Origin: Streptomyces sp. NBC_00259
GTDB taxonomy: Bacteria; Actinomycetota; Actinomycetes; Streptomycetales; Streptomycetaceae
Assembly (NCBI RefSeq): GCF_036181745.1
Contig: NZ_CP108080.1
Span: 8,001,501 to 8,065,500, forward strand
Reading direction: 5' to 3'
DNA: 64,000 nt
Below, in pieces: positions 50,298-55,319 of this stretch (position 1 is the stretch's first letter; each line of letters opens with the position of its first letter). The notes below the pieces were generated by a model. That model ran no database searches. It was not told the DNA's origin and saw only the letters and a list, made by a program, of their open reading frames with translations. Made by a program: the position numbers and the translations under genes.

Positions 50298-51220
50298 TCA
50301 CTTCTGCGGATGGTCAAGAATCCTCCCGAACGTCACCCTCACCTGGCGAATGCCGATATCGACAAGCACCTCACCCACAGGCGGAGCGGGCAGCTTCCTC
50401 CTGCGGGGGCCCTTTTTCGGCTCCCTCATCGACCAGAGTGAAGATGCTGTCCCCGCGCTGCCGCCCGGACCAGCGCAGCTTGTGCCCCTCCGGCACGTGC
50501 CCGTGGTGCAGTGCGTCGTAGTAGCCCGCCCGCCACGGCCCCGTGTCCGCGGGCCCGGGTCGGGGACAGTGCGCTTGCCGGAAGCATTCCTCGATCGCCC
50601 ATCGCGACCCGGCGATCCGCACCAGCTCCCGGGCGGTGGTCTCCAAAGGGGCGTAGGCGAAGTAGTAGGCGATCTCGTCGGGCTTGCGGATGCTGCGACG
50701 GGCCAGCGCCCACCGCATCCGGTGCGGGGCCTCGCCCTGGTAGTCGAACTCGGCAACGGCCGGCAGTCGCACCGCCGCCCAGTGGTAGACACGCGGTCCC
50801 TTCGCTCCGTCGCCGCACGAGATCTTCTGTCGAGGTACAACCTCACGTGGCCAGCCGCGTACAAGCTCATGTGTCCACCCCCCTGGTGGGCGGGCCGGGG
50901 CCGCCCGACTGCAGATGGTGCGGGTCGGCGACCGCCGTCAAGAGCGCCCTGCGGGCAGCACCATGCGCCGGGCCAGTTCGCCCTCGGTGGCGAACTGCCG
51001 CTCGTCCGGGATCTTCGCCGCGTGGCTGCGTTCGCGGCCCTCGGCCCAGGTCTTGGGCAGGTAGAGCTCGCGGTCGACCAGGGCCCGACCGCGGGTGGTG
51101 GCGTAGGCGGCAAAGACGCCGATCTGGCTGTTCTCGACGTGTGCGGCCGACATCTGCTTCGTGAGCCCGGCGCCGCACTGGTTCGCGTCGAGTTCGTGAC
51201 GATACGGAGAGCATTCCGGA
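50298..51220 (-). pseudogene. IS701-family transposase, decayed
   Basis: Pieces in several frames keep the family order: QIGVFAAYATTRGRALVDRE, LYLPKTWAEGRERSHAAKIP, FATEGELARRMV, then after a gap EIAYYFAYAPLETTARELVR and IAGSRWAIEECFRQA. The first catalytic region and N-terminus are lost and at least two frameshifts occur. Codon bias is intact in each block. Confidence 0.8.
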
Positions 51221-51241
51221 ACCGAGGCCGGACATGCGCAC

Positions 51242-51271
51242 GGGCCCCGGGACTGGGATATTCCGGGGCCC
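51242..51271 (-). terminator. Hairpin downstream of the double-glycine peptide gene
   Basis: GGGCCCCGG / CCGGGGCCC, 9 bp perfect with a 12-nt loop, 95 bp after the peptide stop on the minus strand. Confidence 0.5.
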
Positions 51272-51365
51272 TGTCTCACCCCCGCCGCATGCGCAGGCGC
51301 GGGCGGGGCAAGCAATGCTCGTAACCGAGAATACCTTTAGGGGGCGTTCTCAATTGCCGGTGGCT

Positions 51366-51581
51366 TCAGATGCCGGTGGTCTGCACCGAGACGAGACCCG
51401 TGGCCGCGGAGACGGGCACGACGGACGCGATGGACTGGGCAGCCCCGACGACGTCACCGACGTTCACGGCAGCGCCGTAGCCGTTGACACCTGCGTGGGC
51501 GCTGGCGATACCGCCGGAAATGCCGTCCAGCTCGCTGTCGGAAATCTCGACGGTCTCAACAGAGGTGAAGCCGTTTCGCAC
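51366..51581 (-). CDS. Double-glycine leader peptide, orphan RiPP/lanthipeptide-like precursor
   Basis: 71 residues from GTG 51581, which has AAGGGAGAG 4 bp upstream. The first 24 residues form a leader ending ISDSELDGISGG, the ELDxxSGG pattern cut by double-glycine peptidases in type 2 lanthipeptide and bacteriocin-like precursors. The 47-residue core (IASAHAGVNGYGAAVNVGDV, VGAAQSIASVVPVSAATGLV, SVQTTGI) is Gly/Ala/Val-rich, has eight Ser/Thr and no Cys, so no lanthionine ring is possible. No LanM, peptidase or exporter gene lies in the window. It is flanked by IS701 and IS1380 remnants. It could be a bacteriocin, a signalling peptide, or modified by enzymes elsewhere. Confidence 0.7.
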   Translation of the reverse strand: MRNGFTSVETVEISDSELDGISGGIASAHAGVNGYGAAVNVGDVVGAAQSIASVVPVSAATGLVSVQTTGI

Positions 51582-52063
51582 TTTCTCTCCCTTTCCATGC
51601 TGGGGGATTCCTGAACTGACGCCGACCGAAGGCGCGTCAACGAGAAACAGGTCGGCACAACGGCCGCCTGACGCCCGGAGCGGGTATCCGCAATCACGAC
51701 TCCCGCACCCCAGGATGAGATCACGCCAACAGGTCAACCGGCAACTCGCATTCCGGTTTTGAGGGTGAATACTTCTTCACGACAGCGCCAACTGGCGTGC
51801 ACTTTTCCGCGCCCACAGGGGGGCGAATTATGTCACCTGGCATCCGAGGTGGGATGTCGCCACATGTCTGCTTCCTGGACGTATCCGGGTGCAGATGAAC
51901 TGAGCCCGGATCCACCGGCTGATTTCGGGGCGGGCGTTTCGGGGTTGTGTGGGCCGTGTCGGGGTTGAGTCGCGGATTCGGGTGTGGGGTGGCCGCTGGT
52001 CTGCCCAGCTCTTCCACTCTTCCGCAGGTGTCGGGCCCTTTCGGGCAGGTCGGTCGGGGAGCG

Positions 52064-52732
52064 TCAGGAGCCTGGTAGCGCATGTGCGATGCTGAAGAGC
52101 TGGGTGAAGTCCGTGCGCCAGGGCGAGCGTTCGGGTAGGTGCAGGGTGAGGCGGCGGGCCGAGCAGGCCGGCCGGGCGGGCCGTCGGTGATCACGCTCGG
52201 TATCGTGCAAGGAGAGCGGGGAGTCGGTGAACGCGGCGTGGTAGCACCAGGTGTCGAACAGCGTGCCCTGTCCGGAGGGACGGTGCCAGTGCCCAGGCGG
52301 ATGTCCACGTAGGCGACCTGGTCCGCGCCGGGCAGCAGCGGGGTATGACGGGCCAGTGCGGGCAGGAACCGGCGGCCCACGGCATGCAGTTGCTTCACAT
52401 GCCCATGCGTGAAGGAACGCAGAAACGACCGCAGCGTGGACGGGGCCCGCACACCGGCAATCAGGACGGCCCATCGCGCCGTGCCGCAGGCGGTCCACGT
52501 CATCGATGCTGTCGGCGCCCACGACCATGCCACCCACCAGCGACATCACTTTCGCCGCGGGGAAGGCACCGGTGCCGTCCTTCGACGCGGGCAGCTTGAT
52601 GAGCTCGTCGGCCAGAGCTGGCAGACCGCACCGCTCGGCCAACCGCACCACCGGCTCCAGGCCGCCGTACGCGATCAGGTTCGGGTCGTCGAACGCGGAC
52701 GAGACCGCCGCTGCGGCATGGGAAGATTGCAT
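52064..52732 (-). pseudogene. IS1380-family transposase, decayed
   Basis: The start is intact: SSAFDDPNLIAYGGLEPVVR, LAERCGLPALADELIKLPAS and VMSLVGGMVVGADSIDDVDR. Then frames change (STLRSFLRSFTHGHVKQLHA, LPGADQVAYVDI in another frame) and a deletion of the catalytic middle leads to LFDTWCYHAAFTDSPLSL and LTLHLPERSPWRTDFTQLFS. It is clearly inactive. Confidence 0.8.
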
Positions 52733-53889: not shown

Positions 53890-54465
53890 CGAGCAGGCCA
53901 CCGCGAGGACGTAGCCCAGGCCGCGTTCATCCTGGCCGGCCGCTACTTCGAGGCACGCTCCAAGCGCAAGGCCGGCGCCGCACTGAGGGCGCTGATGGAG
54001 CTCGGCGCCAAGGAGGTCACCGTCCTGCGCGCCGGCCGTGAGGAGCACATCCCGACGAGCGCCCTGCAGGTGGGTCGACCGGTTCGTGGTGCGCCCGGGC
54101 GAGAAGATCGCCACCGACGGCACCGTCGTCGAGGGCGCGTCCGCCGTGGACGCCTCGATGCTGACCGGCGAGTCGGTGCCCGTCGAGGTCGTCGTCGGCG
54201 ACGCCGTCACCGGCGCGACCCTCAACGTCGGCGGCCGCCTGGTCGTCGAGGCCACCCGGATCGGCGCAGATACGCAGCTGGCCCGGATGGCGAAGCTGGT
54301 CGAGGACGCGCAGAACGGCAAGGCCGCCGCCCAGCGCCTGGCCGACAAGATCTCCGCCGTGTTTGTACCCGTCGTCATCGCCCTGGCGCTCGGTACCCTC
54401 GGGTTCTGGCTCGGCAACGGCGCGGGGCTCACCGCTGCGTTCACCGCGGCCGTCGCCGTCTGTAA
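53890..54465 (+). pseudogene. Heavy-metal P1B-type ATPase (CopA-like) central fragment
   Basis: [40 protein letters not shown], then after a +1 shift near 54075 [40 protein letters not shown] and [20 protein letters not shown]. The TGES actuator motif is present, but the metal-binding CPC helix and the DKTGT phosphorylation domain are cut off at 54465. Both ends are truncated. Confidence 0.88.
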
Positions 54466-54475
54466 AGGATCACCT

Positions 54476-55319
54476 TCAGCGGTCGGCGGCGACGAGGACA
54501 ACGAGCGCGGTAAGGAGGCCGCGAGAGTCATCGCCGTAGTGGCCGGCATTCCGAGGAATCTCCGCTCCTGAGGACGGTGCTGATGGGCGAGCCTGAGGGC
54601 CACCCACCCGCCTTGCGCGAGCACACCGGCGACGAATGCCAGCAGCAGTGGCATGAGGACGTTCGGGATGGGCAGCCAACTCGTCACGAAGGCGCCTGCG
54701 ACCGGGCTCAGGCAGGCAAGCGCGATCCACGGGGCCACCCGCCGGCGCGGTTGCGTCCCCAGCAGGGCGGCCAGCGCCAGGCTCTCGCTCGCGGCGTGCA
54801 CCAGCAGCGCCGCCACCACAGTCAACGATGCGGTCAGCGCCACAGTCGCTCCTCCCAGGAACCGGTGCAGGCGAGCCCGGATGCCGCGCCGATGCCACCG
54901 GCGCGGCCCGGATCGCACGGGCAGCCGATGCGAACCACGGCGCCCATGACCGCGTACGAGGCGAGCGCGGTGACCGGCACCACCCACCACGGCACACCAG
55001 CCTCGTGCGCCTCGTCCCACGCGTCGGGCAGCAGATGGAGAACGGCGATGATCAGCAGAATCGCGGAAGCTGCGGCGAACAGCTTGGCCGAACGACCGAA
55101 TCCGCGCCGCGCCAGCCAGGCGCCCACCACCGTGGCGACAGCGACCAGAAACACGGCGACCAGCGTTTCGGTCGTGGGCAGCTCCCACCCGCCCCCGTCT
55201 CGGTGCGCGCGCGTGCTGTGTACAGCACGGAGAGCATGTCCCTCTCTGCATCGGATTGCCGCGCATGTGTGCGCGGTGCGGGCGAACCGGCTCCGTAATT
55301 CACTATTCCACTCCGCCAC
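54476..55319 (-). pseudogene. ZIP-like metal permease, frameshifted
   Basis: TLVAVFLVAVATVVGAWLAR, KLFAAASAILLIIAVLHLLP, then in another frame TVALTASLTVVAALLVHAAS, ESLALAALLGTQPRRRVAPW and VLMPLLLAFVAGVLAQGGWV, returning to a third frame for [10 protein letters not shown]-stop at 54476. H-x-L-P and HAASESLALAAL are typical ZIP helix IV-V metal ligands. Two indels (near 54900 and 54530) break it; the start is uncertain. Confidence 0.7.

Follow-up and report, generated by a model that had tools for sequence, protein, structure and literature searches.

The gene under study, which lies in a stretch of 64,000 nucleotides (the window), probably encodes a satellite precursor peptide that would be cleaved and exported in trans by an NHLM exporter whose genes lie on the same chromosome at a distance of 1.15 Mb, and released unmodified. 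This reading is drawn from the double-glycine leader of the precursor, from a paralogous precursor standing beside the only such exporter of the genome, and from the joint occurrence of the precursor family and this exporter across Streptomyces.

RESULTS

A cysteine-free precursor gene between decayed transposons

The 71-residue reading frame is, judged from its sequence, a real gene, and the features of its locus are listed in Table 1. As in the original prediction, it was found to have a strong ribosome site, and its translation, VRNGFTSVETVEISDSELDGISGG/IASAHAGVNGYGAAVNVGDVVGAAQSIASVVPVSAATGLVSVQTTGI*, consists of a double-glycine leader followed by a core with eight Ser/Thr (5 Ser and 3 Thr) and no Cys; the strand had not been given before. 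The leader agrees with the classical LSxxELxxIxGG pattern at all the positions checked (-12, -11, -8, -7, -4 and -2/-1), and its residues E12, L18, G23 and G24 were invariant among 31 family members. The fold prediction for the peptide was of low confidence (pLDDT 57) and not interpretable.

Table 1. Features of the precursor locus in window coordinates.
Feature	Position	Strand	Remarks
Precursor gene	51366..51581	minus	71 codons and TGA, GTG start; orthologues known
Leader, double-glycine type, ISDSELDGISGG	51510..51581	minus	24 residues; fits LSxxELxxIxGG
Core	51369..51509	minus	47 residues, no Cys/Lys/Arg; GRAVY +0.95; predicted monoisotopic mass 4305.26 Da
Ribosome-binding site GGGAGAG	51585..51591	minus	3 nt before GTG; conserved in five orthologues
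Upstream element TCGTGAAGAAGTATTCAC	51765..51782	minus	18 bases, identical in five orthologues
Hairpin GGGCCCCGG/CCGGGGCCC	51242..51271	minus	12-nt loop; stem mismatched at top, near loop
Decayed IS701 transposase	50371..51315	minus	pieces in two frames (50371-50772 and 50938-51315); profile positions 275-328 and 111-173 of 363; PF13546
Decayed IS1380 transposase	52064..52732	minus	N-terminal piece; profile positions 3-76 of 419

The conserved element upstream of the gene is probably part of a promoter or operator. It occurs only once in the window's genome at up to 2 mismatches and, being unique, was ruled out as a regulon signal; a simple scan for sigma-70 promoters and terminators gave no match. 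The description of the gene as lying between two dead transposons was correct because broken pieces of IS701 and IS1380 transposases are present in its flanks. The statement that no modification or export gene is nearby stood for the window, where none was recognised close by, but an exporter was found elsewhere in the genome. The window gene had no match among 72,556 plasmids that would point to plasmid-borne mobility. A fragment of a heavy-metal/copper P-type ATPase was noticed at window positions 54038-54571 (plus strand); at two other loci (L073 and L076) the stand-alone precursor is immediately followed by CopZ-like and CopA-like genes, and at a third (L081) by a P-type ATPase. Their proximity is possibly a coincidence, and a link to the precursor was dropped as the closest orthologues do not have such genes.

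The gene is conserved together with its control region

Orthologues with 82-90% identity were found in four other Streptomyces, and about ten further Streptomyces carry members of the window clade with about 50-72% identity and a C-terminus like GLVSVQTTGI. Among the five closest copies dN (0.04-0.13) was lower than dS (0.11-0.23), with dN/dS of about 0.3-0.6 against the window gene, the ribosome site was identical and an upstream block was conserved. Homologous short genes with a conserved frame, on whose presence in relatives the original prediction had let the gene stand or fall, do exist. The genomic surroundings of the orthologues differ except between close relatives, and therefore gene and control region together form the conserved unit. 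The stand-alone clade was found to have no conserved partner gene, the recurring neighbours being common to close relatives only. Within the window clade the core changes faster than the leader, with mean identities of 0.50 and 0.72, respectively.

The window's genome encodes an NHLM exporter beside a second precursor

Two members of the family are present in the window's genome, namely the window gene and a cysteine-free precursor (L032:9886-10113) with a predicted core mass of 4607.49 Da, which stands directly upstream of genes for HlyD, ABC1 and ABC2. The products of these genes matched TIGR03794, TIGR03796 and TIGR03797, respectively, above the curated cut-offs, and the locus maps at about 6.900-6.907 Mb of the chromosome (G000:C1). 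ABC1 was the sole C39 peptidase found in the genome. It carries the motifs ECG, HYVV and NDP, which we take to be the expected C39 catalytic C, H and D residues, and aligns along its length with 4RY2, a solved peptidase-containing bacteriocin transporter. The word orphan, in the sense of a precursor without machinery, does not fit a genome in which a paralogous precursor adjoins an NHLM exporter equipped with a C39 peptidase, nor the near-perfect co-occurrence of precursor and exporter; the proposal that the peptide is matured by distant enzymes appears to be supported by this exporter.

The genome check suggested earlier for LanM and a peptidase-containing ABC transporter returned one such transporter and no LanM. 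A single LanC-like protein was found in the genome; from its kinase-like and cyclase sequence we judge it to be a class III LanKC of the SapB (RamC/AmfT) type (G000:C1:6156917, L117). In addition, a LanB-like dehydratase gene is grouped with three YcaO genes inside 13 kb (G000:C1:681466-694557, L144-L147), and together they look like a separate azole/thiopeptide-like RiPP cluster. When the flanks of 12 exporter loci were compared, no RiPP-modifying family recurred among the 25 commonest NCBIfam/Pfam families, a survey in which a singleton could be missed, and the clustering of neighbours agreed in giving no recurrent modifying family. Since neighbourhood genes were called by a simple GC-frame script, very short ones may be missed, and it is within this limit that no recurrent small (immunity) gene was seen among the clustered neighbours. 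A secreted protease with an alpha-lytic-type prodomain was noticed near the exporter operon at 9 of the 20 loci fetched first (e.g. L037:11099-12550 and L034:16621-17922), which could be a matter of synteny or a second processing enzyme.

The precursor family and the exporter occur together in Streptomyces

A profile built on 31 members (A1) was searched against 121 Streptomyces genomes. The family was found in 85 of these and the NHLM peptidase-ABC (TIGR03796) in 89; both were present in 84 genomes and neither in 31, and the single genome with a precursor only is an assembly that is 79% complete. Fisher's test gave 1.7e-22 for this co-occurrence, a value that overstates the association, since the genomes are related and hence not independent, and since linked pairs occur together by their very definition. 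There were 81 precursors within 5 kb of an exporter gene, in an arrangement of precursor, HlyD-like, peptidase-ABC and ABC genes with usually one such precursor per genome, and 45 unlinked ones, 44 of them in exporter-bearing genomes. The unlinked copies are the informative part of the co-occurrence, although some (G002, G105 and G143) are possibly linked pairs split by contig breaks, the assemblies of some relatives being fragmented. Furthermore, all the 18 checked genomes with window-like genes carry the exporter. In one genome (G113, locus L078) a precursor with the C-terminus QLVNVQTTGI, of the window-clade kind, stands directly before HlyD-ABC-ABC genes, and this links the stand-alone clade with that exporter.

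Among 67 distinct family members the core is without Cys in 65 and without Lys/Arg in 56. Outside Streptomyces the family was confined to near relatives, and 296 sampled genomes of the phylum gave a match in no genus except that of the window. A separate unlinked subfamily (SGGLSPHA..., ending HVGxSxSL), seen at L033 and L035, is without a downstream hairpin; besides it there are further unlinked paralogues, with as many as three in a genome.

A hairpin follows the precursor genes

A family-specific hairpin with the stem CCCCGGAAC/GTTCCGGGG was found about 10-95 nt after the stop codon in 34 of 36 family loci (e.g. L073:10171-10224, L080:10210-10263 and L032:9830-9883). In exporter operons it sits between the precursor and hlyD, and it is also present behind stand-alone copies. 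The stem showed covariation both in linked copies (27 double changes vs 9 in shuffles) and in the window clade (26 vs 12.5). A motif search of 900 kb returned 24 hairpins, 23 of which were right behind a family gene (two of them being one locus fetched twice). In a search of 402 kb with a covariance model for which only linked copies had served as training set, the stand-alone copies came out on top, and the best off-target hit had E = 0.05. A strong second copy (46 bits) was seen at L036:15055-15108, where it does not adjoin a precursor. Rfam had no family corresponding to this hairpin. The hairpin of the window gene was not reached by the covariance model R1 at E<=5, and its folding energy was not unusual against shuffles (z -0.88); it is best read as a degenerate copy of the terminator/attenuator hairpin of the family. 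Attenuators are known to follow lanA and bacteriocin structural genes. Behind stand-alone genes the hairpin would end the transcript, and its likeliest role, by analogy with those attenuators, may be to provide more precursor than exporter message.

DISCUSSION

The original prediction had related the peptide to type-2 lanthipeptides and had added that it cannot form lanthionine. The latter was borne out by the core without Cys. The lanthipeptide reading itself was ruled out, as there is neither a core Cys nor a LanM and the surroundings of the exporters show no recurrent RiPP-modifying gene. One Streptomyces gene, located next to a C39 peptidase, bears the database name 'type A2 lantipeptide' (PMC13047742), and we infer that it belongs to the same family as the window gene. 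This name, which would rest on the leader only, is apparently wrong for such genes and is unsupported because most cores are without Cys, LanM is absent and no modifying enzyme recurs. In open-access papers such a gene was mentioned only by its automatic name; subscription journals may contain a study of it.

The core might instead be modified in trans, for example by Ser/Thr dehydration, epimerisation or cyclisation, before NHLM export, which would make it a new RiPP. The eight Ser/Thr of the core, the LanKC, LanB-like and YcaO genes of the genome (the last two at 681-694 kb) and the known association of NHLM exporters with modified peptides of the NHLP/N11P kind (PMC2887384) speak for this; yet the LanB and YcaO genes form a cluster of their own, the genome has no LanM, Cys is lacking in nearly all the family cores, and the linked precursors have no modification enzyme as a recurrent neighbour, so that we consider such a RiPP unlikely. 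With no such recurrent enzyme at the exporter loci, secretion of the peptide in unmodified form is the likelier course and the 'unrecognised RiPP class' of the original prediction is unsupported, though a modifying enzyme may be encoded elsewhere in every genome. Somewhat less likely still is an NHLM-exported peptide that is surface-active or has a structural role in the envelope or aerial hyphae of Streptomyces, in the manner of SapB and the chaplins. The hydrophobic Gly/Ala/Val-rich cores (GRAVY +0.95, K/R mostly absent), the confinement of the family to Streptomyces and near relatives, and the location of the exporter operon no more than about 10 kb from a SapB-like ram cluster in three species (L039, L045 and L046) are compatible with it, but few species show the proximity to ram, which may reflect synteny, the core diversity is high for a structural peptide and the predicted fold is of low confidence. 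It is very improbable that transposons carried this precursor copy to its place and that it is now a disused, decaying relic: the dead IS elements on both sides, the lack of a nearby exporter and the mismatched hairpin would agree with decay, whereas the frame is intact with dN/dS below 1, and the ribosome-binding site and the unique upstream element are conserved in five species with differing neighbourhoods.

We therefore favour export in trans of an unmodified peptide, a reading for which the hairpin common to linked and stand-alone precursors also speaks, while the transposon debris around the gene and its own degenerate hairpin count against it. The stand-alone precursor would be made from its own promoter and its leader recognised by the HlyD-like (TIGR03794), peptidase-ABC (TIGR03796) and ABC (TIGR03797) proteins of the exporter, whose C39 domain would cut after GG. 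A hydrophobic peptide of 47 residues without Cys or basic residues would then leave the cell, presumably unmodified, and act outside it, its role being the least certain part. A bacteriocin-like or signalling peptide among Streptomyces is favoured because the leader is conserved and the core is faster-changing; a classical membrane-active bacteriocin seems less fitting, as the peptide is not positively charged and no immunity gene was recognised. More tentatively, and with the balance slightly against it, the family could be a class of secreted peptides spread across the genus, unmodified and devoid of Cys and basic residues, whose dedicated NHLM exporter serves satellites in trans and whose conserved, sequence-specific hairpin behind the precursor sets the precursor-to-exporter ratio. 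It would then be an unrecognised system of communication, competition or surface function in the most intensively studied antibiotic producers, hidden under the name 'type A2 lantipeptide'.

The precursor-exporter pair is present in about 70% of the sampled Streptomyces genomes. Should these peptides be released unmodified, Streptomyces would have a widespread class of secreted peptides that is easy to synthesise and can be tested directly; should they be modified, the responsible enzymes have escaped notice. An 'orphan' precursor in Streptomyces should be judged against the whole genome and not against its neighbourhood.

Comparison with known systems

Class II (type A2) lanthipeptides share the double-glycine leader and Ser/Thr in the core with the window peptide, which differs from them in having no core Cys and no LanM in its genome, and no LanM recurs beside the linked relatives either. 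The unmodified class II bacteriocins (lactobin A/cerein 7B, TIGR03949; CTB, NF038167) have the same LSxxELxxIxGG leader and a Gly/Ala-rich hydrophobic core, whereas the window peptide is without positive charge and without a recognised immunity gene; the matches to both models were weak and below the curated cut-offs (13.2 bits for NF038167 vs a cut-off of 32). Membership in NHLP/N11P was ruled out as neither TIGR03793 nor TIGR03798 matched: unlike those precursors, the window peptide has a short leader (24 residues) that fits neither the nitrile-hydratase nor the Nif11 model, and its family has no thiazole/oxazole or lanthionine enzymes alongside. With regard to NHLM export, the cassette is present in the genome above the cut-offs and is not linked to the window locus. 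The systems described for NHLP/N11P peptides and their NHLM cassette (PMC2887384) nevertheless share with the present one the TIGR03794/03796/03797 proteins, cleavage (here predicted) after a double glycine, and the organisation in which several precursors per genome, some of them unlinked, go with one exporter.
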